In this document: piece by piece, positions 7,133 through 60,939 of the stretch
How positions within the stretch are numbered: the stretch's first letter is position 1
Layout of the letters: each line of letters begins with the position of its first letter
NCBI GenBank assembly: GCA_003649445.1
Contig: QMRV01000008.1
Coordinates: 1-61,724 of the forward strand
Direction: 5' to 3'
DNA: 61,724 nt
Source: Thermoprotei archaeon
GTDB lineage: Archaea; Thermoproteota; Thermoprotei; Thermofilales; B15-G2
The notes under the pieces: model-generated
The model's input: the letters and a program-made list of their open reading frames with translations, nothing else
The model's database searches: none
Told to the model about the DNA's origin: nothing
Made by a program: the position numbers and the translations under genes

Positions 7133-8212
7133 GTGAAGATAGTTAAAGTAGAGTGGACTACATATCAAGTTAAGAATAAAGAGCCGTTTAGGATAGCCTA
7201 TGGAGTATCTCTAGGAAGCACTAATGTTTTTGTGAAAGTAGTGTTAGAAGACGGCACAATAGGATATGGAGAGGCTTGTGGATCTCGTAAAGTTACAGGA
7301 GAAACTGCACGTACGATAACTTGTTTCATGAAGGATGTGGCTAATTTACTGGTAGGCGAAGATATTTATAATCTAACGAAGATTATTGAGAAAGTATGTG
7401 GTTTTATGAAAGGAAATACTGCAGCTAAAGCCGCAATAGACCTTGCTCTACACGATGTTTGGGCCAAAGTGTATGGAGTGCCTCTCTTCAAAGCTCTAGG
7501 AGGTAAAGTTAAGAATGTTGAAACAGACTATACTATTGGTATAAAAGATATAAGTTCTATGTGTAAAGAAGCAAAAGATTTTGTTGAAAAGGGATTCACT
7601 AAATTAAAAATAAAAGTAGGTGTTACTCCTCAAGAAGATATAGAAATAGTCAAGAAAATTAGAGAAGAAGTAGGTTATGATATCGAACTTAGGGTAGACG
7701 CAAATCAAGCATGGGATCCTAAAACAGCTGTAAAAGTAATCAATGCGATTACACGCTATGAGATAGAGTTTGTAGAACAACCAGTTCCATGGTGGGATTT
7801 AAATGGATTAAAATATGTTAAAGATCATGTAGATGTAAAAATTATGGCAGACGAATCTGTCTTAACATCCAAAGATGCTTTAAAAGTAGTGAAAATGGAA
7901 GCAGTAGATCTAATTAATATAAAGTTAATGAAGTGTGGAGGACTAAGAGAAGCTATGAAAATAACTAGTATTGCTGAAGCAGCAGGTGTCAAGTGTATGG
8001 TAGGCTGTATGAATGAAACATCACTTTCAATAGCAGCCGCGGCTCACTTAGCTGCAGCTACACCGAATATAGTGTATTGTGATTTAGATTCACCTCTCAT
8101 GATAGTAAATGATCCTGCTAAACCTCCACTAAAGTACATTAAAGGAGTTATAGAGCTCCCTGAAAATAAGGGTATAGGAATTGATGTAGAAAATGTCTTC
8201 AAAAAACAGTAA
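7133..8212 (+). CDS. Dipeptide epimerase (enolase superfamily)
   Basis: Muconate-lactonizing-enzyme-type TIM barrel of about 360 residues. Visible catalytic features: KLKIKVG (KxK base on strand 2), the metal ligands DANQAW, VEQP and ADES on successive strands, NIKLMKCGG (second catalytic Lys), and a CDLD motif on the last strand. The DxD at that position is the mark of L-Ala-D/L-Glu and related dipeptide epimerases, where it binds the substrate ammonium group. The exact dipeptide is unknown; an archaeon without murein would use it for peptide catabolism. Its 3' end overlaps the kinase gene by 20 bp, so the two are probably co-transcribed. Confidence 0.85.
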   Translation: MKIVKVEWTTYQVKNKEPFRIAYGVSLGSTNVFVKVVLEDGTIGYGEACGSRKVTGETARTITCFMKDVANLLVGEDIYNLTKIIEKVCGFMKGNTAAKAAIDLALHDVWAKVYGVPLFKALGGKVKNVETDYTIGIKDISSMCKEAKDFVEKGFTKLKIKVGVTPQEDIEIVKKIREEVGYDIELRVDANQAWDPKTAVKVINAITRYEIEFVEQPVPWWDLNGLKYVKDHVDVKIMADESVLTSKDALKVVKMEAVDLINIKLMKCGGLREAMKITSIAEAAGVKCMVGCMNETSLSIAAAAHLAAATPNIVYCDLDSPLMIVNDPAKPPLKYIKGVIELPENKGIGIDVENVFKKQ

Positions 8213-8780
8213 AGTAAACAGAATAATTATTACGGGAACACCTGGAGTTGGAAAAACCTCCGTATCCAAGAAAGTTGCGTCTATTTTAAATGCAAAATAT
8301 GTCAACTTGGCAGAATTTGTTAAAAGTAATAAATTGTTTTTAGAGTATGATAATGAATTAAACAGTTACATTATAGATGAGGAAAAGACGCGAAAAACAT
8401 TAAGGAGGCTACTAAGAGAATATAGTCGTGTAGTAGTAGACACACATATACTCACCGTTTTCGACCCCAATGCAGTAGATTTAGCTATAGTTCTTAGATT
8501 GAATCCTAAAATCCTTTTAAAGAGACTAAAGGAGAGAAACTATTCCTTAAGCAAAATTAAGGTTAATATACAGGCTGAAATGCTCGGAGTATGTCTTAGC
8601 GAAGCTGTAGAAATATTCGGCTTAGATAAAGTAGCCGAAGTAGATACTACAGCGAGAAACTTGGAAGAAGTAGTGCGAGAAGTTCTTAATGCTATTGATC
8701 ATCCAAATAAATATAGGCCAGGAAAGGTAGACTGGTCCCAGTTAATATACGATGATGAATTAATGAAGTATCTAGTTTAA
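8193..8780 (+). CDS. AK6/Fap7-type adenylate kinase
   Basis: A 195-residue P-loop NTPase with GTPGVGKTS near the N-terminus and VVVDTHI in place of the usual Walker B/core of the hCINAP/Fap7 (AK6) family. A short C-terminal tail ends in KVDWSQLIYDDELMKYLV. Family members phosphorylate AMP and act late in small ribosomal subunit maturation (pairing with uS11). Translation is coupled to the upstream epimerase by a 20-bp overlap. It is distinct from the zinc-LID adenylate kinase at 54.3 kb. Confidence 0.85.
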   Translation: MSSKNSKVNRIIITGTPGVGKTSVSKKVASILNAKYVNLAEFVKSNKLFLEYDNELNSYIIDEEKTRKTLRRLLREYSRVVVDTHILTVFDPNAVDLAIVLRLNPKILLKRLKERNYSLSKIKVNIQAEMLGVCLSEAVEIFGLDKVAEVDTTARNLEEVVREVLNAIDHPNKYRPGKVDWSQLIYDDELMKYLV

Positions 8781-21664: not shown

Positions 21665-22789
21665 TTATCTCACCATAGAAAATGCAATATTAGCTCCTAA
21701 AAGTACGAAAAAGTATGCCGAGATAGCGATTTGCATTATTTTCTTTAATTTATCTTCTTTAGCTATTTTCTCGATTAATGCTTCAACTATTCTTTCTCCA
21801 TCAAACATTATTATTGGTAACATGTTTAGAGTAGCTACGCTGAAGTTTATTACGTATATCCATTCAGCAAATAATATAAGATTTTCCGGAAGTGGTCTTA
21901 AATAGTTTTGAGATATTTCAATGCCTATGAATGCTTTTCCTCCTCTATTTCCTAAAACTAGCTCGGCAAAAACTACTTTATTATTTCTTAGAACCTTAAT
22001 GGTTATTTTTTCTCCTGGTTTATATTGAGAAAGAACCCTAGATAAATCTGATATAGTGTTTATTGTGTGGTTATCGATGCTTAAGATAATATCTCCTGGA
22101 AGAAGGTGTTCTTCAGCAGGGTATCCCTTAATAGTATTTACAACTAGAACTCCTCTAGGCGACTGATACCACATTGCTGTGAGAAGAAAGATCCACGTTA
22201 TAATAACTACTAAAAAGTTTGCAAAAGACCCTGCAGAAAGTATTCTGAGTTTTTTCCTTGTGCTAAGTAGCTTAAGTTTATTCTCATCTAATTCAACGAA
22301 ACCTGCTAATAAAAATAATATTACAGCGAAACCCGAAGAAACTATGGGGATATCTTCACTGGCAGCGGCAATTCCGTGAGCTAGCTCATGGACAATAAAA
22401 GCTATTATAATGGCTATTATTAAGTAGGGTATCATGTTCCATCCTATAGTTACTCCAGGTATTATTAGGATCATTTCCTGGGCTTTGGCAGGCTTATATA
22501 TGAATGAATAAAGATTCACGTGTAGAAAATATATTATAAATACCATTAAAAAGAAGCCAATTAATATTGATATATCAAAAAATATATGCCAGTATTTTGA
22601 GTATCTGCGACCTATTTTATATATTATTTCATTAAATTTTGATGTTCTGAAGAAAAGTCCTAGAGGGTATACTTCAATACCTTTTTTGCGTAGTTTTTCG
22701 AGGTGCCGAAGAGATAAAATATAGACAATAAGCCAGAAACATGCTACTGAAAGTATTATGGGCAGTATGTTGCTGGAGAGGGCTAGCAC
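21665..22789 (-). CDS. Site-2-protease-type membrane metalloprotease with PDZ domain
   Basis: 374-residue intramembrane zinc protease. HELAH (His134, Glu135, His138) lies in the second conserved helix and LNMLPIIMFDGER carries the third zinc ligand (NxxPxxxxDG). A PDZ domain (GVLVVNTIKGYPAEEHLLPGDIIL, about 220-290) sits between them. About six membrane segments. S2P enzymes cleave membrane-bound regulators; the substrate here is unknown. Downstream gene is a small membrane protein 1 bp away. Confidence 0.9.
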   Translation of the reverse strand: MLALSSNILPIILSVACFWLIVYILSLRHLEKLRKKGIEVYPLGLFFRTSKFNEIIYKIGRRYSKYWHIFFDISILIGFFLMVFIIYFLHVNLYSFIYKPAKAQEMILIIPGVTIGWNMIPYLIIAIIIAFIVHELAHGIAAASEDIPIVSSGFAVILFLLAGFVELDENKLKLLSTRKKLRILSAGSFANFLVVIITWIFLLTAMWYQSPRGVLVVNTIKGYPAEEHLLPGDIILSIDNHTINTISDLSRVLSQYKPGEKITIKVLRNNKVVFAELVLGNRGGKAFIGIEISQNYLRPLPENLILFAEWIYVINFSVATLNMLPIIMFDGERIVEALIEKIAKEDKLKKIMQIAISAYFFVLLGANIAFSMVR

Positions 22790-30800: not shown

Positions 30801-31586
30801 TTATATTAACATAATTTTGAAGCAGTTAAATACCATATATAATATTTTCAAGAAAAGAAAATATAATGTAACAAATAATACTGAACATAAAAGAGCAGCT
30901 TTTTCATCGATCTTACTTAAAAATAAATATAAAATGAAAGGATATATTGAAAATAAAAATGAATTTTCTGAAATAACATATTTTGAATGAAAAAGAACAT
31001 AGGGAAATATTGTAATCATAGAGCTAGTAAGTGAAAGTAAAATTGAAAGTATTCTAGATCTATAAAAGAATACATGAGTTTTTATGCTGAGGAAACTGAC
31101 ATTTTCTCTTAATTGTGTAGCAATATCTATTAGTTCATTTACAAATAATAAACACGATTTAAAACTCTTTTTATAAATTTTTATTAGTATTCTTAGTGAA
31201 ATATCCACTAATTTTGACAGTGAAAAAATGTATTTATAATGTGAATTTGAAGTATGCAAACACATACTTTTTATTAATTTAATTATTATAGTGTATATTT
31301 CTTGTTCAGATTTTTTAGCTGAAATAAAAGAGAACATTGCTCTTTCTAAATTTATTTTTGATTCCATCTTACTTTTTACATAATACAATAGTGTTATGAA
31401 GGTTTCTAACTCATTTAACTCTAAATCTATTAAATATTTTAGCGACAAAGTTTTTTTAATGATATAGAATAGCACTATGAAGTCAACAATTAAACAATAC
31501 TCAATATTATATACAATAAATAGTAATAAATTAATATACAGTAGGAGGTAAGTTAATATAATACAGATAATATTATTATTTTTCAT
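30801..31586 (-). CDS. Membrane protein, probable second half of a split type IV pilus platform
   Basis: 261 residues, AT-rich coding. Two N-terminal helices (IICIILTYLLLYINLLLFIVY, CLIVDFIVLFYIIKK), a cytosolic helical domain (about 55-175: LNELETFITLLYYVKSKMESKINLERAMFSFI), and four C-terminal helices. A GspF/TadC-type platform domain has this plan. The N-terminus ETFITLL...INLERAM matches the helical-bundle style of TadC. It overlaps the upstream gene by 4 bp (ATGA). Last gene of the TFB-ATPase operon. Assignment rests on context more than on motifs. Confidence 0.55.
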   Translation of the reverse strand: MKNNNIICIILTYLLLYINLLLFIVYNIEYCLIVDFIVLFYIIKKTLSLKYLIDLELNELETFITLLYYVKSKMESKINLERAMFSFISAKKSEQEIYTIIIKLIKSMCLHTSNSHYKYIFSLSKLVDISLRILIKIYKKSFKSCLLFVNELIDIATQLRENVSFLSIKTHVFFYRSRILSILLSLTSSMITIFPYVLFHSKYVISENSFLFSIYPFILYLFLSKIDEKAALLCSVLFVTLYFLFLKILYMVFNCFKIMLI

Positions 31587-32074
31587 AGTATTCTCTTGCT
31601 TAATACTACTATTATAAGCATTATTGTTAATCCTATAAATGTTAAATAAATAATTTTAGTGAAAAATGGTATGTTAAATATAATCGCTGGTAGTATCAAG
31701 GGAATGTAAAATAGAAACGATACTGCTAAAAGCATTGTTAGAGTATCTTCATATTTTTCGAGAAGTGTTTTGAGTACTCTGTTTACAAATAGAAGAAGTG
31801 TATCTTCATCAGCATTTTCTGCAAAGTACTTGTTAAAGGTTTTTCTCAGTATATTATTGTACTTACGTACCCTAATAAAAGAATTAAGTATTTTTAACAA
31901 CGAGACATTATTTACATCTTTTATACTAATATTTACATTATAGTATTCACTTAATAAATGTATAAAGAATATTAATGATACTTTTTTATCTCGATAAATA
32001 TTTCTAATGACATTGTATATAAGTAATAAAATATTTATTTCGAGAAAATCATAAATTAAAGGCATACTTCTCAC
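31583..32074 (-). CDS. Membrane protein, probable first half of a split type IV pilus platform
   Basis: 163 residues. A cytosolic helical domain (FFIHLLSEYYNVNISIKDVNNVSLLKILNSFI..., NADEDTLLLFVNRVLKTLLEKYEDTLTML) is followed by two membrane helices (LAVSFLFYIPLILPAIIF, IIYLTFIGLTIMLIIVVL). This resembles one GspF/TadC half. It overlaps the ATPase gene by 26 bp upstream and the next membrane gene by 4 bp. Start GTG at 32074 or ATG at 32065. A single fused platform is usual, so two separate halves would be unusual. Confidence 0.5.
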   Translation of the reverse strand: MRSMPLIYDFLEINILLLIYNVIRNIYRDKKVSLIFFIHLLSEYYNVNISIKDVNNVSLLKILNSFIRVRKYNNILRKTFNKYFAENADEDTLLLFVNRVLKTLLEKYEDTLTMLLAVSFLFYIPLILPAIIFNIPFFTKIIYLTFIGLTIMLIIVVLSKRIL

Positions 32075-33782
32075 TTTTAGCTTTCCTTATAAAGGGTGTT
32101 GGATAAATAAGTAGGTTATTAGAAAGATTTCTATCATATATCTTTATAAAGCGAAAGGAATTATTCGTGTCTAATGGTTCGTAAACTTTATCAACATATC
32201 TTATTACTTTGTTTTTATAATATGATTTTTTAGTAAAAATTATAATATCTATTAAGAATAACATATTATGACTTATATTGTAGTTATTTACAATTCTATT
32301 TAAAAGTTTCTTAAGTGAATCTGAATGGCATGTAAATGCACATTTGAGGCCTGCTGAAAGAGCCAAAAATAGTGCTTTAAACTGGTCTTTGGATTGAATT
32401 TCTCCTAAAATTATGTAATCGGGATTTCTGTGAAGAAGTTTAGTTACCTCTATCTCTTTGCCTTTGTACTTTGGGCTATCTATAGGGTATACTTTATATC
32501 GTGCTTGATGAGCTTTGCCAGTGATATCTCTTATACTTTCGACTACATCTTCAATGTATAGTTTACGATAAAACGAGGGAATTTCTCTATCTAGTGCATT
32601 TAAAAGCGTAGTTTTCCCTGTGCCAGGTTCTCCTACAATCATCAGGTTAGGGCGATATTTCATGCAAAGTCTAAGATAATTTACAAGAGTATGTGGTAGC
32701 ATATTTATTTGTGCAAGTTTTTCTAATGAACATAAATAGATATTATGTTTTCTTATATTCAATATTATATCGTCAACTGCTAGAGGACTTATATCTACAC
32801 TAACTCTTACAGCGAAAAATTTTGTTATGAGTTCTGTTTTTAGTGAGGGATTTGTTTCATCTATGATATCTCCAGTTTCTATTTTAAGTCTAGTGATTAT
32901 ATTATCTATATCATCTTTGTTCAATTTAATATTTGTTAGGCACCTGCCATATTTTATATGGTCTAGGTAGATGTGAGAATTCACTCCGTCGAGATATATC
33001 TCCTGTATGTTTCTATCTAATAGAAATGCCATGAGTTTATGTAAGCCCAATATTTTATGACATAAGTATTTGCTTGTGTTTGTAATAAAATTCTTATAAT
33101 TAATATTAAAGTCTATAAAATCTAGTAAGAGCTTGTCTACGCAAATTTTACTTAGACATAAAATTAATTTATTTAGATTGTATGATAAAATATTCGCAGA
33201 TATTATTTCGCTAAATTTTGCATATAAATAATTTAGAAGAAGGATGCTGATATTGTTAACTATAATACTAGGTTTAACAATATAGTAACTTTCTTTTTCT
33301 CCTAAAATAATGTTAATTGTGTACGGTGGGATATCATAAACAGTTACTTCCTTATGCCTAAGTGCTATATCTCTGTTTGGTGGTGAAAAGTACTCTGTTA
33401 AAGATAGAGGTTGAGTTTTTATACTTTTATATGTCTTTAATATTCTATAAATTTTTGTCAATATTTTGTAGACTTCTTTACTTGATTTTTTAAGCTGCTT
33501 TTTATATGAATCTATAATATTAAGTGATGTTTCTAAATCATTTCTTGCCAAAAATCCGGGAAATGGAAAGACTGAAAAAACTTCTGATAAGTCTTGTAGT
33601 ACATCGTAGTCAATGTTTGAGTGTAGTTTTTCACTGTTTGAAATAATACTGTTTCTTAGCTTTCTTATTAAATTTGATAGTAGTATTATGTTTTGATCCG
33701 TCACTTCGTTCGATAGGCTTTCAGATAGTGATAGTATGTATGCACTTATGTATATATTATTTGGCATCGGCATTCTTTGCAA
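32049..33782 (-). CDS. Type IV pilus / VirB11-family secretion ATPase
   Basis: 577 residues. The C-terminal motor has Walker A GEPGTGKTT (384-392), Asp box LYIEDVVES (408-416), Walker B DYIILGEI (455-462) and His box CHSDS (His486). Before it lie the N2 domain (VYDIPPYTINIILGE; HKLMAFLLDRNIQEIYLDG) and a poorly conserved 140-residue N-terminus. Such ATPases drive archaeal pili, archaella or secretion. It is flanked by a TFB paralogue upstream (26-bp overlap) and two membrane proteins downstream (26-bp and 4-bp overlaps). No pilin or prepilin peptidase is in view. Starts: TTG 33782, ATG 33773 or 33767. Confidence 0.85.
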   Translation of the reverse strand: MQRMPMPNNIYISAYILSLSESLSNEVTDQNIILLSNLIRKLRNSIISNSEKLHSNIDYDVLQDLSEVFSVFPFPGFLARNDLETSLNIIDSYKKQLKKSSKEVYKILTKIYRILKTYKSIKTQPLSLTEYFSPPNRDIALRHKEVTVYDIPPYTINIILGEKESYYIVKPSIIVNNISILLLNYLYAKFSEIISANILSYNLNKLILCLSKICVDKLLLDFIDFNINYKNFITNTSKYLCHKILGLHKLMAFLLDRNIQEIYLDGVNSHIYLDHIKYGRCLTNIKLNKDDIDNIITRLKIETGDIIDETNPSLKTELITKFFAVRVSVDISPLAVDDIILNIRKHNIYLCSLEKLAQINMLPHTLVNYLRLCMKYRPNLMIVGEPGTGKTTLLNALDREIPSFYRKLYIEDVVESIRDITGKAHQARYKVYPIDSPKYKGKEIEVTKLLHRNPDYIILGEIQSKDQFKALFLALSAGLKCAFTCHSDSLKKLLNRIVNNYNISHNMLFLIDIIIFTKKSYYKNKVIRYVDKVYEPLDTNNSFRFIKIYDRNLSNNLLIYPTPFIRKAKSEKYAFNL

Positions 33783-34653
33783 TGCTTATAATTGTTGGTA
33801 AACGTTTTCTTATACTACTTTCATTTACATCTAAAATATCTGCTATAGCTTTAATGCTAACCTTTTCTCCTCTATTGATTACCTTTGAGACAGAATAGTA
33901 GACTATTGTGGCAGCTAATACCCGTGGACTTTTTCCTTGTATTATGCGTGAGTCAAGATGCTTGAGTATTAAATTACATTCTCTTAGACATAGTCTTCTT
34001 TCCTTTACTGAAAGATTTAGAGTATTCATTACCTTATTCAGAAAACGCATAGTGTATTCCTTTACTCCGGGTCTACTGTAAACGATTCCCTTTTTGGAAA
34101 GCATTTGCATGATTTCCCATATGTTGCTTAGCGATGTTCTATGGCCTCTTTCAGCGTATGCTTTTACTATTTTATTTATATTGTACCCATATTTCTTAGC
34201 GGCATATATCAGGCAGGCAGCTGCTATTCGATGATAGAAAGGTCTTCTTCTGTTTAATGTTGGCACTATGTGCTGACATGCAAATATGTAGAGTTTTTTA
34301 GCTTCATTTACAACATAGTTTGGTAAACCTAATTTAAATGCAATAAAGTTAAGTTCTTTAAATACTCTTAAATGCGTGGATCTATTGCCATATTTAATGT
34401 GAATATGGTACTCTCTAAGTTTTCTATAGAAGATATTCGCCGGTCTTTTAAGAAAATCTCTCATAGGACGTGGAATGAAAGACCCATCTTCAGCATCAGT
34501 TGTTAACACTTTTTTTGAAATAGTGTCGTCGGCTACAGTTAATGGAGTGTCCCAGTATCTATATCCGTGTACTGTTCCACACTGACTGCACACTATTTCT
34601 CCTTCGGGAGTCTCCACTAATGGTCCTTGACATTTAGTGCACCTATTATACAT
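33757..34653 (-). CDS. Second transcription factor B (divergent TFB paralogue)
   Basis: About 298 residues. Zinc ribbon CTKCQGPLVETPEGEIVCSQCG (6-27), B-linker with DGSFIPRPM, then two cyclin folds (about 95-185 and 195-298), ending in a helix-turn-helix (VSIKAIADILDVNESSIRKRLP). It is clearly a TFB but much more divergent than the one at 60.0 kb. It overlaps the pilus ATPase gene by 26 bp and so is expressed with it. TATA-like GAATATAAAG lies about 25 bases before the ATG at 34653 (GTG 34659 also possible). A dedicated initiation factor for the pilus-like operon is a reasonable inference. Confidence 0.85.
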   Translation of the reverse strand: MYNRCTKCQGPLVETPEGEIVCSQCGTVHGYRYWDTPLTVADDTISKKVLTTDAEDGSFIPRPMRDFLKRPANIFYRKLREYHIHIKYGNRSTHLRVFKELNFIAFKLGLPNYVVNEAKKLYIFACQHIVPTLNRRRPFYHRIAAACLIYAAKKYGYNINKIVKAYAERGHRTSLSNIWEIMQMLSKKGIVYSRPGVKEYTMRFLNKVMNTLNLSVKERRLCLRECNLILKHLDSRIIQGKSPRVLAATIVYYSVSKVINRGEKVSIKAIADILDVNESSIRKRLPTIISIAKNADAK

Positions 34654-34772
34654 CAACACTAATAGCAGTTTTTCCCTTTATATTCATTGTAGGAAAATTT
34701 TTACCATAAGAAAGCAGAAAAAAGTTTCAGTCTACTCTCAAGTAAATTTTATCGAAGTGATAAAGGAATATG

Positions 34773-35068
34773 TGCTTATGGAATGCCGTAGAATAGAGAA
34801 TATTATTTTTTCTAAAATTGCTATGAAAATACTTATAGCATTATATCTTTCTAAAAAGCCTATGACGAAGTATCAGTTAATGAAAAAAGTTAATGTTAAT
34901 TACAAGATATTAGTTGACAGACTTAATAAGCTGATAGAAATAGGTCTTATCGAAGTACATTATTATAAACCGCTACGCTATAGTTTATCTAAAAGGATTT
35001 TCATCAATAAGGAGTATGAGCCTATATTGAAATATATTGAGGCTATGTCTAATATCATAAGGCTTTAA
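34773..35068 (+). CDS. Winged-helix regulator (ArsR/MarR-like)
   Basis: About 98 residues. KIAMKILIALYLSKKPMTKYQLMKKVNVNYKILVDRLNKLIEIGLIEVHYYKPLRYSLSKR is a winged helix with the usual helix-turn-helix and wing. The frame opens as far back as 34637, but that part overlaps the divergent TFB gene. GTG 34773 or ATG 34779 is therefore preferred. Divergent from the TFB2/pilus operon, it is a candidate regulator of it. Its 3' end overlaps the endonuclease subunit by 14 bp. Confidence 0.65.
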
Positions 35069-35582
35069 TAGCTTCGTAGTATGAGATATTCCCATCCTTA
35101 TCTACTATTGCTAATATTGGTATTCGCTTATTTTTTAAAGCTTTTTCGATGATATCTACTAGTTCCGTTATAGATATTGACTTACCTTCAGATAAAATAA
35201 AAACAGAATACTTTATTTCACCTTCTTTTCCTCTTGAGAACAGGATAGTAGGTGGTGTAGCTTCATGGACTATTCGAGGGATGTATCCTCTTTTTCTAAG
35301 ATCTCTATAGACTATGTATAAATCCCATATTTCTGGATTGCTACTCCAGCAGAAAATAAAGACATCTTCTTTATTGAGTATTTTGTCCTTAATTTTAACA
35401 ATATACTTACCGCTCTCTAGCAGGTAGAGTATCTCGGCTAAATGAAGTAAGTATTCATCGCCATAACTTATTCCGATTCCGCGGTCTTTTAAAACAGAAA
35501 TTTTTTCTCTATTGACCAGTGCAAAGTAATCTTCCTTAGGCTCTACTATAAGTTCGATAATCGACTGTTTTTCTTGCTTCAT
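35055..35582 (-). CDS. tRNA-splicing endonuclease, non-catalytic (structural) subunit
   Basis: 175 residues. The EndA-like fold is recognisable (LAEILYLLESGKYIVKI; IWDLYIVYRDLRKRGYIPRIVHEATPPTILFS; IPILAIVDKDGNISYYEAIK), but the catalytic Tyr-His-Lys triad is absent. This fits the structural subunit of the crenarchaeal (alpha-beta)2 endonuclease, which broadens specificity to non-canonical introns. Only 48 bp separate its start from the two-intron tRNA. The catalytic partner is at 38.8 kb. Confidence 0.88.
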   Translation of the reverse strand: MKQEKQSIIELIVEPKEDYFALVNREKISVLKDRGIGISYGDEYLLHLAEILYLLESGKYIVKIKDKILNKEDVFIFCWSSNPEIWDLYIVYRDLRKRGYIPRIVHEATPPTILFSRGKEGEIKYSVFILSEGKSISITELVDIIEKALKNKRIPILAIVDKDGNISYYEAIKAL

Positions 35583-36264: not shown

Positions 36265-37227
36265 ATGTATACTGTAGTCGATCTCTTTTGTGGAGCAGGA
36301 GGATTTTCTAGGGGCTTTCACCTTGAAGGGTTTGAAGTAGTGTTGGGTATAGACAACTCTCCTCAAGCCTCTAAAACTTTTTCAAAAAATTTCAAGAAAG
36401 CTATAGTTATTTGCTCTGATATAAAAGAAGTGTCAGGGCTAGATATTTTAAGGGAACTTGGATATAGGCCCGATGTAGTTATTGGAGGACCACCTTGTGA
36501 AGCATTTACTCGGACAAATCCTCTTAGAATGCCTAATCCTATTGACCGGCTATACTTAGACTCAGTAGGACAGTTAACCCTGCATTTCATAAGAATAGTG
36601 GGAGAACTAAAACCTAAGGTATTCGTTATGGAAAATGTTCCGAGTATTATTGAAGGAGAATTAAAACAAGCTTTACGTGAAGAGTTCGCGAAAGCAGGGT
36701 ATAAGAAAATATACTTTAACATACTCAGAGCAGAAGACTACGGAAATCCTTCAATCAGGAGAAGAATATTTATATCGAATATCAAGCTGTCTCCTCCTAA
36801 ATTAAGGAAGAAAACTACGGTGGCTGAAGCTATAGGAGACTTACCTGAACCCGGAGTATCGTCGGATATACCTAATCACGAGTATACTCCTTTTTCTCCG
36901 AGAAAATTAAGAAAAATATCTAGATTAAAGTGGGGTCAAGCACTTATAATCTACAAGGGTGCTGAAGGTCGATACTACAAAAACTATATAAGGTTACATC
37001 CAAATAAGCTTGCACCGACAGTAATGGGGTCTTCTCGCTTTGTTCACCCCTATAGCGATAGGCTACTTACTGTTCGCGAACAAGCCAGACTCATGGGGTT
37101 CCCCGATTATCATGTCTTTTACGGTGGAAGAGATTCTCAGTACAATCAAGTAGGAGAAGCAGTTCCAGTACCGCTAGCTAAGGCTATAGCGAGAGAAGTA
37201 TATAAGGTACTCGAAAACCTACTATAG
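36265..37227 (+). CDS. DNA cytosine-5 methyltransferase, apparently solitary
   Basis: 320 residues with the m5C motif order: I VVDLFCGAGGFSRGF; IV VIGGPPCEAF (catalytic Cys near 86); VI VMENVPS; VIII NPSIRRRIFIS; a short target-recognition region (about 195-260); IX and X LTVREQARLMGFP and YNQVGEAVPVPLA. PPCE replaces the more usual PPCQ. The enzyme methylates DNA for restriction or another epigenetic use. No cognate nuclease is adjacent. The next gene starts 7 bp downstream. Confidence 0.92.
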   Translation: MYTVVDLFCGAGGFSRGFHLEGFEVVLGIDNSPQASKTFSKNFKKAIVICSDIKEVSGLDILRELGYRPDVVIGGPPCEAFTRTNPLRMPNPIDRLYLDSVGQLTLHFIRIVGELKPKVFVMENVPSIIEGELKQALREEFAKAGYKKIYFNILRAEDYGNPSIRRRIFISNIKLSPPKLRKKTTVAEAIGDLPEPGVSSDIPNHEYTPFSPRKLRKISRLKWGQALIIYKGAEGRYYKNYIRLHPNKLAPTVMGSSRFVHPYSDRLLTVREQARLMGFPDYHVFYGGRDSQYNQVGEAVPVPLAKAIAREVYKVLENLL

Positions 37228-38757: not shown

Positions 38758-38774
38758 TTAAACTCTAACTGTTG

Positions 38775-39377
38775 ATGGTAAAAAATATACTTGTGATACT
38801 TAGTAAAAGTTGTATAGGTATGGAGCATAAAGCTTACTTAATTGGACGTAAAGTAGTAGTATTTGACTATGAGTTAGGAAGACAGCTTTACAAAGAAGGA
38901 TTTTATGGAAAATTTACATATGTGCCAAAAGTCAAGGATTTAGCTCAGTGCGATGAAATCGAAAGTCCTCTTGAATTATCTTTAGTTGAAGCTCTCTACT
39001 TAATGAAAAGAGGTAGAATTAAGATAGTCACGAGAGAAGGCAAAGAAATAAGCATAAATGAGTTCATAGAGTTAGCACGCAAATATATTGACCTCTTCGA
39101 CGAATTATATTCGGTGTACGAAGACCTTCGAAGTAGAGGATATATTGTAAAATCAGGCATGAAATTTGGAGCAACATACGCTGTGTACAAGTATGGTCCC
39201 GGCATTGACCACGCTCCCTTTTTAGTACAGGTTTCAACAAAAAATACGAAAATGGATCCCATAGAGATTGTTCGAGCAGGAAGATTGTCGCACTCAGTAA
39301 GAAAGAAATTTGTAATTGCAGTAAGAGATGTTACGTCAGGTAAAATAAAATATTACGCTTTTAAGTGGTTCGGATGA
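38775..39377 (+). CDS. endA: tRNA-splicing endonuclease, catalytic subunit
   Basis: 200 residues. The C-terminal nuclease domain carries the triad: ATYAVYKYGPGIDHAPFLVQV (Tyr near 138, His146) and RLSHSVRKKFVIA (Lys near 177). The N-terminal domain has KVVVFDYELGRQLYKEGFYGK and LSLVEALYLMKRGRI. It cuts bulge-helix-bulge motifs in pre-tRNA; with the structural subunit at 35.1 kb it forms the heterotetramer. Its TGA overlaps the next gene's start (ATGA). Confidence 0.93.
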   Translation: MVKNILVILSKSCIGMEHKAYLIGRKVVVFDYELGRQLYKEGFYGKFTYVPKVKDLAQCDEIESPLELSLVEALYLMKRGRIKIVTREGKEISINEFIELARKYIDLFDELYSVYEDLRSRGYIVKSGMKFGATYAVYKYGPGIDHAPFLVQVSTKNTKMDPIEIVRAGRLSHSVRKKFVIAVRDVTSGKIKYYAFKWFG

Positions 39378-59514: not shown

Positions 59515-60015
59515 ATGAAAAACCTATGGGCTCCCTGGAGAGTAAAGTATGTGAGATATAAGGCCATAGAAAAACAAAAAGGATGTTTTCTATGTGAAAT
59601 ACCTAAAGAGAATAAAGACAAAGAAAACTTTATTGTTTATAGAAGTAAACACGTCTATATTGTATTGAATATTTTTCCTTATAACAATGGCCATGTATTA
59701 GTTGCACCATATAGGCACGTAAAGTACTTAAATGAACTTAATCAAGAGGAGATGCTTGATTTAATGCAGACAGTCAACTTAGTAACTGATGCTTTACTTA
59801 GAGCATATAGACCAGACGGCTTTAATATAGGAATAAATATTGGCAGAGCTGCCGGAGCAGGAGAAGAACACTTACATGTTCACGTGGTTCCTCGATGGAA
59901 TGGAGATACGAACTTTATGGCAGTACTAGCAGAAACTAAAGTTATACCAGAGGGGCTTTATGAGACTTACAAGAATTTGAAGAAGGCTATAGAAGAGATT
60001 TTATCTCATCGGTAA
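59515..60015 (+). CDS. HIT-family nucleotide hydrolase
   Basis: 166 residues. CFLCEIP gives one CxxC zinc site, [22 protein letters not shown] and [19 protein letters not shown] supply the histidine triad (HxHxH). The archaeal HIT proteins cleave dinucleoside polyphosphates or AMP-NH2-type substrates. ATG at 59515; overlaps TFB1 by 15 bp tail to tail. Confidence 0.92.
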
Positions 60016-60939
60016 CTTGATGTTGAGTTTCTTTGCTAGTTCTTTGTATCTATTTCTTACAGTTACTTCTGTCACTTGGGCTGCTTGAGCGACTTCTTTC
60101 TGTGTTCTAACTTCTCCTGAAAGAAGTGACGCTACATATATTGCGGCGGCTGCTAGACCAGCAGGATCCTTTCCTGCTGTAATACCGAGTTTCTTGGCTT
60201 CTTTGAGTATTTCTATTGCTTTTCTAATAGTAGTTGCGCTAAGCTTTAATGTTTCACCTATTTTTGGAGCAAAGTCGACTGGGTCAGGTAAAGGAACTCT
60301 AATTGTGGCTTCGCGAAGTAGTAGTCTATAGCATCTAGCGACATCTTTTCGTCCAGCTCTAGTATATTTCGCTATCTCATCCAGTGTTCTGGGCATTTTG
60401 AGTTGTCGACAAGCAGCGTAAATAGATGCGGCCATTACAGACTCTATTGATCGGCCTCTAACGAGACCTGACTCAAGTGCTCGACGATATATTTCAAGTG
60501 CCTGTTCCTTTATTGTCTTAGGTAGCCCTAGCTGAGCCGCTAGCCTCTCTAGTTCCTGAGCTGCTTGCTGAAGATTCCTCTCTATTGAGGACTGACTTCT
60601 TGCTCTAATTTGCCATTTTCTAAGGCGTAGTATCTCTATTTTGCGCTTGAGGTTTAGTTCTCTACCCGATGCATCTCGTGCTCTCCAGTCGATGACGGTT
60701 ACTAAGCTGTCTGGAGTTACTCTTGACATCGGAGCACCAACTCTGCTTCTTCTTTCTCTCTCTTCTGGAGTAAATGCTCTCCATTCAGGTCCTCTGTCAA
60801 TAGACCTGTCTGTAATTACGAGTCCACAGACTGCGCAGATTAGCTCGCCTCGTGTGTAGTCCAATATTAGCTTGTCGCTACCGCACGCTGGGCACTTCTT
60901 TACATATTCCCCCGTTTCAATAACTTCCTCCCTACTCAT
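60001..60939 (-). CDS. tfb: Transcription initiation factor B (main TFB)
   Basis: 312 residues. Zinc ribbon [24 protein letters not shown] (16-41), B-finger with [22 protein letters not shown], and two cyclin folds (about 115-205 and 210-305; [28 protein letters not shown]) ending in a HTH ([24 protein letters not shown]). Recruits RNA polymerase to TBP-bound promoters. Highly canonical, in contrast to the divergent paralogue at 33.8 kb. ATG with CGGTAAGGGTGAT-type ribosome site just upstream. Confidence 0.97.

Follow-up and report, generated by a model that had tools for sequence, protein, structure and literature searches.

Gene content of the operon

This analysis concerns a predicted operon on contig QMRV01000008.1 of a Thermoprotei archaeon, in which a paralogue of transcription factor B (TFB, a TFIIB homologue) is encoded together with parts of a type IV pilus (T4P) machine. 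The window referred to throughout is the whole stretch of 61,724 nucleotides that was analyzed; sampled loci, genomes, contigs and proteins carry L, G, C and P numbers. The operon consists of four intact minus-strand open reading frames (ORFs), and the ORF listing reproduces both the coordinates and the successive overlaps of 26, 26 and 4 bp given in a preliminary description of this DNA.

33757..34653, minus strand: divergent TFB paralogue, T4P-linked, with a zinc ribbon, two cyclin-type repeats and a shortened linker
32049-33782, minus strand: VirB11/T2SSE-type pilus-assembly ATPase, 577 aa, start at 33782 or 33773
31583..32074, minus strand: membrane protein of 163 aa, probably the N-terminal first part of a TadC/GspF-type platform
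30801..31586, minus strand: 261-aa membrane protein, predicted second platform part, whose residues ~55-176 form a GspF/PilC-like cytoplasmic bundle

The TFB ORF reaches upstream to a GTG at 34659; the inner ATG at 34653 is the start used by the homologue P0002. Its product matches the TFIIB repeats of Pfam (3.5e-10), with two TFIIB stretches matched, and keeps the CxxC...CxxC cysteines of the ribbon. The ATPase matches T2SSE (1.6e-14, Pfam) and its catalytic motifs GEPGTGKTT, ILGEIQ and TCHS are intact. Because a 97% identical homologue (P0004) begins at the codon equivalent to 33773, the overlap of TFB and ATPase may be 17 bp instead of 26; the second overlap would likewise be shorter if the first membrane protein begins later, at 32065. 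Close relatives of this TFB are rare, as the homologue search returned, beyond the protein itself, only P0002 (85%) and P0003 (65%). P0003 is probably situated together with P0006, a 56% identical homologue of the window ATPase, since the longest contig has a length of 169,611 for both. The other TFB of the window, at 60001-60939, is of the general type.

Neither membrane ORF alone passes the Pfam cut-off. The 261-aa protein was matched to the second platform family by profile-profile comparison; it was not among the matches listed for the HMMER profile of that family, and its profile-profile comparison with fused platforms gave no match (1.0%). The 163-aa protein ranks first, weakly, with the HMMER profile of the first platform family (E 0.0036). 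Similarity to TadC/GspF folds, whose absence would have spoken against the earlier proposal that these proteins are halves of such a platform, is present. It makes a fair case for the 261-aa protein as one of two platform parts and a weaker one for the 163-aa protein. The window operon has an ATPase with intact motifs, a TFIIB homologue in the same predicted operon and TadC-like platform protein(s), all marks of a TFB-linked archaeal T4P locus. As had also been claimed, no convincing pilin is encoded within the 61.7 kb window: the signal-peptide pattern gave one doubtful match (22179-22379), and no match to the Flp profile passed the inclusion threshold (best E 0.025, at 3-107).

Linkage of TFB and ATPase across genomes

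The arrangement of TFB and pilus ATPase is more than a chance one, because a TFB lies within 7 kb of the ATPase in 55 of the 64 loci on the window's side of an ATPase tree and beside none of the 34 other pilus ATPases. By midpoint distance, 54/64 have a TFB within 6 kb. Among loci with at least 4.5 kb upstream or a TFB found, 55/57 are linked, compared with 0/21 in the other group (at least 4.5 kb upstream). L218 and L002 are the true exceptions; the remaining seven loci without a linked TFB are cut off by a contig end. The neighborhoods therefore bear out the earlier suggestion that the two genes belong together.

The sample comprises the window ATPase and 97 further T2SSE ATPases with their surroundings, 98 in all. 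The 97 derive from L001-L003, a set of 15 loci, a set of 39 loci selected from a longer list, and 40 taken from 77 listed places; L167 was also fetched and contains no ATPase. Loci were picked by similarity to the window ATPase, except for 14 Pyrobaculum- and Vulcanisaeta-type rows, which are likewise only distant matches. The first label rests on the description by Makarova, Koonin and Albers 2016 (PMC4858521), whose main text reports a pilin-less subclade 4D operon of Pyrobaculum and Thermoproteus with its own TFIIB (arCOG05559), an ATPase and a membrane protein. Pyrobaculum-type rows were chosen partly by short length, after TFIIB was known there from that paper. The label Vulcanisaeta-type rests on the Vulcanisaeta locus L051 (G005), with a similarly ranked ATPase. 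Every ORF of the fetched stretches was scanned with profiles of TFB and ATPase.

The 64 loci include Pyrobaculum-type loci (L134-L140, L162; ATPase 342-347 aa, TFB 157-175 aa) and Vulcanisaeta-type loci (L141-L144, L222, L223; TFB 274-277 aa). When the 14 rows of these types are left out, 41/50 loci are linked (41/43 testable). In a quick IQ-TREE phylogeny of 440 columns, with bacterial Tad ATPases left out, 33 of the 34 rows without a nearby TFB fall on one branch (SH-aLRT 100). The window ATPase groups with the TFB-linked ATPases, its branch being long and the inner nodes having SH-aLRT values of 80-86. A search of genome contigs with the ATPase was flooded by bacterial Tad ATPases; among viral contigs there was one match, a distant one (26% identity).

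Among 81 genomes of the class, G015 is closest to the window (GlyRS identity 78%). Two of its contigs, C62 and C134, correspond to the flanks of the operon and break off at the locus edges, one end carrying a 70-aa C-terminal piece of the 261-aa protein and the other a winged-helix gene. The operon is probably present in G015 and unassembled. Since its contigs stop at both locus edges, G015 is unable to refute the link between TFB and ATPase.

A distinct set of TFBs

Pilus-linked TFBs are set apart from the general TFBs sampled. In a tree of 79 TFB proteins, 23 general TFBs (20 of them drawn from the best-scoring rows of a TFB search), including the window protein at 60001-60939, form one clade with support 100, and all 54 linked TFBs lie outside it. 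Two proteins that a distance rule calls unlinked also lie outside, those of L187 (5.4 kb from the ATPase, edge to edge) and L002 (8.2 kb). The latter is a Lokiarchaeota TFB (L002:19383-20432) ~8 kb from a related T4P ATPase (L002:9020-11206). As it falls on the linked side of the tree, the pairing may be older than Thermoproteota.

ATPase and TFB distances are correlated (Mantel r 0.90 for 54 pairs, 0.66 for 34 pairs after thinning; 0/2000 permutations as high), which shows joint inheritance, not interaction. The zinc ribbon pattern is kept in 46/54 linked TFBs, and two of the eight misses begin at contig ends. When nine linked TFBs are aligned with two general ones, the linked proteins are seen to be without the conserved segment that general TFBs have between the ribbon and the first repeat; the C-terminal recognition helix is present.

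Fuller loci and their chromosomal setting

The fullest loci have the gene order TFB, divergent pilin-like cluster, coiled-coil protein, ATPase, membrane proteins 1 and 2, short pilin and large ATPase. Proteins of the pilin-like cluster have one N-terminal transmembrane helix each. The short pilin is Flp-like and 62-99 aa long in most loci; it follows the start rule of class III-type pilins, in which cleavage at G/A/S is followed by Glu at position +5, and eight aligned sequences share two invariant glutamates. It lies downstream of the ATPase in 32/64 loci, compared with 0/34 controls. Flp homologues also occur elsewhere in the genome in G022, G024 and G042, whose loci have no Flp, and in G021, whose locus is cut by a contig end. 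Weak matches were obtained in G072 (3.0e-6) and G080 (2.5e-5), the genomes of L139 and L134.

The large ATPase has DUF87/HerA domains and, in several loci, one or two predicted N-terminal transmembrane helices. CedD is the best NCBIfam match in all three proteins tested (L120, 3.5e-71; L195, 4.3e-61; G015, 8.5e-52), and the HerA (1.5e-16) and CedB (2.5e-12) matches of the L120 protein are weaker. PADLOC labels for these ATPases (mad8-, HerA-type) were set aside, as CedD scores far better. Our own CedD-like profile exceeds 100 bits on the same strand downstream in 24/64 loci and 0/34 controls (22/57 versus 0/29 for loci with 4.5 kb downstream). With the NCBI CedD model, 34/59 ATPase places have a same-strand match within 5 kb among the matches listed, all downstream.

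In L184 an XPD/Rad3-like helicase gene follows the CedD-like ATPase gene, and the pair follows Flp; L185 and L188 have similar-sized ORFs at the helicase place. G015 has the same pair on C23, unlinked to the operon. PADLOC gives the G015 helicase a type IV DinG match (2.6e-35). Off the TFB locus, pairs of HerA/CedD-like ATPase and XPD/Rad3-like helicase genes were seen at L255:549-3514 (G015), L257:5286-8342 and L258:5341-7454, in genomes G015, G055 and G080. As a separate observation, L129:6037-7553, L128:5909-7368 and L130:6106-7637 hold two ORFs (130-135 and 356-378 aa) at the CedD-like place. They are unrecognized by the CedD-like profile, and a 377-aa ORF of this type has no Pfam match; they are possibly a decayed or strongly diverged CedD.

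The locus has a recurrent chromosomal setting. At least one of four flank genes lies within 9 kb in 54/64 loci (TGT 37, Lsm 38, AdK-like 36, thermosome 35), compared with 2/34 controls, both with an AdK-like kinase alone and with somewhat shorter stretches searched. TGT, Lsm and thermosome profiles were identified by Pfam, while the AdK-like label comes from the P-loop alone. In its fullest form, TGT and Lsm precede the TFB, pilins, ATPase, membrane proteins, Flp and CedD-like ATPase, and AdK-like kinase and thermosome follow. The window operon has probably moved from this setting, since none of the four genes lies within 9 kb of it. The window does encode, at 8193-8780, an AdK-like kinase similar in type to the one beside the usual locus, ~22 kb from the operon and without the other flank genes.

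Comparison of neighborhoods with Sulfolobales

CedD scores above its equivalog cut-off in 19 of 398 sampled genomes of the phylum, and S. acidocaldarius appears to be the one control above it. We fetched 15 loci around above-cut-off CedD genes (L317-L331) and five with weaker CedD (L332-L336). A short TFB3-like TFB (166-204 aa) lies near thermosome and CedD in 14 of the 15. It directly adjoins the thermosome gene in 13, is five ORFs away in L319 and is missing from L330. TGT and/or Lsm are also in the fetched stretch in 12/15 loci, and none of the 15 contains a T4P ATPase. Among the weaker loci, L333, L335 and L336 have TGT, Lsm, CedD and thermosome without pilus genes; past the thermosome gene, L333 and L336 contain short ORFs with weak TFB similarity (1.5e-4 and 3.8e-5), and L335 is without any TFB match.

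Published locus tags agree with the fetched loci: Tfb3 is SiRe_1717 (PMC10470591) and CedD is SiRe_1715 (PMC11868833), two tags apart. CedD of S. islandicus is described as a membrane-anchored VirB4/HerA-type ATPase, held by a transmembrane segment, that is needed for DNA import and induced by UV (PMC11868833). The ups and ced genes are reported to be regulated by TFB3 (PMC6934391; PMC9905601, citing Feng et al. 2018).

Promoter and neighboring genes

Two features lie upstream of the operon.

34675..34683, minus strand: TATA-like element, candidate operon promoter, 30 nt upstream of the TFB start (consensus match only)
34778..35068, plus strand: divergent winged-helix gene, TrmB/HTH_45-like with weak Lrs14 similarity; candidate regulator, membership unproven

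The winged-helix gene, put forward earlier as a possible repressor, has a counterpart in the corresponding position of G015 (L175:4127-4417). A match was found in one of 18 other loci, namely L002, where it is weak and ~4 kb from the ATPase. Immediately before the TATA-like element, pilus promoters contain less A than other promoters of the same loci (30 vs 87; p 6e-5 for A, 0.007 for G). Although this fits a different B recognition element, it is not used here, because wrongly called TATA elements give the same result. Between the divergent pilin and ATPase operons of two loci (L126:7430-7520 and L127:8060-8180) is a near-palindrome in which two TATA-like elements face each other, each with a run of G before it, unlike the A-rich control promoters.

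A C5-cytosine DNA methylase gene lies at 36265-37227, and G015 has a comparable gene in the corresponding position; no restriction enzyme was noticed beside the window gene. Two tRNA-intron endonuclease-like genes, 35055-35582 and 38772-39377, are ~3 kb apart, the first being diverged.

Interpretation

The neighborhoods establish linkage, gene order, co-inheritance and the family of most parts. Most likely, with a probability of roughly 0.6, the window operon is a reduced, relocated copy of a TFB-T4P locus, and its TFB is a dedicated, TFB3-like activator of a DNA-exchange pilus. Such a locus joins the TFB to a T4P machine of ATPase and two-part platform, to which fuller copies add an Flp-like pilin, pilin-like proteins and a predicted DNA-translocating, CedD-like ATPase. 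Made together with the motor, the TFB would act as a dedicated activator or initiation factor for pilus and DNA-exchange genes. In the window's lineage, its regulon would include pilin and cedD-like genes encoded elsewhere. Probable co-transcription of TFB and motor would let an initial transcriptional burst feed forward onto this regulon. The role would resemble that of TFB3, which activates the ups and ced genes of Sulfolobales upon DNA damage. The preliminary description had proposed a dedicated transcription switch; this is plausible, and more so because a TFB3-like gene occupies the matching Sulfolobales-type neighborhood, though regulation by the TFB is something we infer.

A more ambitious historical version is tentative, and we hold it at slightly less than even odds. 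The TFB-T4P-CedD locus between TGT/Lsm and AdK/thermosome would be an ancestral DNA-exchange island of Thermoproteota, and TFB3 would be its TFB, left with CedD when the pilus genes were lost there. The window TFB would then be a full-length orthologue of TFB3 and a dedicated, sigma-like switch for DNA exchange.

Several considerations weigh against reading the operon as a relocated copy with a TFB3-like activator. The promoter test is confounded by possible miscalled TATA elements. The window itself encodes neither a convincing pilin nor CedD, and G015 yielded no Flp pilin. The CedD scores of all three proteins tested are below the 600-bit equivalog cut-off, and 25 of the 59 ATPase places have no CedD-model match nearby among the matches listed, some of them because of contig ends. 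The 14 TFB3-like proteins obtain similar bits with linked- and general-TFB profiles, which gives no decision; because the scores are about equal, the tie between TFB3 and the window TFB rests on neighborhood. That neighborhood differs in detail, as several genes separate Lsm from the TFB3-like gene in most of the 15 loci and CedD is located beyond the thermosome gene, unlike in the fuller TFB-T4P loci. Divergent unlinked TFB paralogues are under-sampled in the TFB tree, because its general TFBs come mostly from best-scoring rows, and joint descent alone could be enough for the Mantel result. Finally, a family ATPase (E 2.7e-38 or better) is present in 59/398 genomes, not all. The family is widespread, not universal; on the present reading the locus would be old, and widely but patchily kept in Thermoproteota.

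Other functions would fit parts of this evidence. The pilus could serve adhesion or another surface role, its TFB being kept by chromosomal position and co-transcription without a special regulatory task. The ATPase places without a nearby CedD match would agree with this, as would L333, L335 and L336, where CedD occupies the same setting without pilus genes and the TFB is absent (L335) or weak. We consider it unlikely, given that linked TFBs fall outside the clade formed by the general TFBs sampled and that the window keeps its TFB-ATPase pair though outside the usual setting. Somewhat less probable again is a machine that no longer makes pili, with TFB, ATPase and membrane proteins serving a transcription-related or other intracellular process, as the main text of PMC4858521 suggests for the pilin-less subclade 4D operon. 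No pilin was found in the window or in G015, and our own profiles recognize nothing but TFB and ATPase in L134-L140 and L162, with a single ORF of 178-190 aa behind them. However, same-side relatives keep Flp-like pilins with Glu at +5 and pilin-like proteins with an N-terminal transmembrane helix in the locus, and genomes whose loci lack Flp encode homologues elsewhere, with weak matches even in those of L139 and L134. A protein secretion system, rather than a pilus or DNA-exchange machine, is very improbable: T2SSE ATPases and GspF-type platforms are common to secretion systems, but Flp-like pilins and the CedD-like ATPase recur in the fuller loci.

Several TFBs are often carried by one archaeon, and regulons are, to our knowledge, established for few of them. 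The loci described here tie a set of TFBs to a single pilus machine across many Thermoproteota genomes, frequently together with a CedD-like DNA motor. If the shared neighborhood of TFB3 reflects descent, it would explain how a general initiation factor became an activator of DNA-damage-induced pili and DNA import. On the same condition, the TFIIB of the pilin-less Pyrobaculum operons, a puzzle since 2016, would be accounted for by these being reduced forms of the locus, and a DNA-exchange system would be predicted in further lineages.

Relationship to known systems

The Tad/Flp machinery comprises TadA, TadB, TadC and Flp. The TFB-T4P loci resemble it in their TadA-like ATPase (NCBIfam TIGR03819, 8.7e-20 in the window), two platform proteins and, in relatives, a short pilin with Glu at +5. 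The match of the window ATPase is far below the TIGR03819 equivalog cut-off (71 vs 373 bits). An archaellum was set aside, as the FlaI equivalog scores 86 bits against a cut-off of 550.

The operon had also been put forward as the best candidate for an undescribed system, which does not hold, because a 2016 paper had already described TFIIB homologues from pilus loci of archaea, as well as a pilin-less operon with TFIIB. According to the main text of PMC4858521, TFIIB homologues (arCOG01981) occur in many archaeal T4P loci and are the commonest of the unstudied regulators there. Like those loci and the subclade 4D operon, the window has a single predicted operon that encodes a TFIIB homologue along with TadC-like membrane proteins and an ATPase of VirB11 type. 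A pilin is typical for TFB-linked T4P loci and absent in 4D, and the window operon is likewise without one. It differs from 4D in that its TFB has two cyclin-type repeats instead of the single one of the Pyrobaculum-type proteins (157-175 aa), its ATPase has 577 aa compared with 342-347 aa in Pyrobaculum-type loci, and its platform consists of two proteins. The ATPase of strict 4D operons has a Cys-rich N-terminal domain and no C-terminal domain. The main text of the 2016 paper does not contain the word helicase, and names HerA only for the ATPase superfamily; we found no mention there of the CedD link or the TGT-Lsm/AdK-thermosome setting. In a literature search made mostly without subscription papers and without supplements, we found no report of the CedD link or the synteny with TFB3.

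A close parallel is the TFB3-Ups-Ced DNA-damage system of Sulfolobales, which likewise has a TFB paralogue, a T4P assembly machine and a CedD ATPase. Its TFB3-like and CedD genes are in the same TGT/Lsm/thermosome neighborhood as the TFB-T4P-CedD locus of other genomes. Unlike that locus, the 15 Sulfolobales-type loci have no local T4P ATPase, place CedD beyond the thermosome gene and encode a TFB3-like protein of only 166-204 aa. A response to DNA damage is described for the Sulfolobales system. The window locus is a reduced form of a known TFB-linked T4P locus, and the CedD link and TFB3 synteny are the part that is apparently new.

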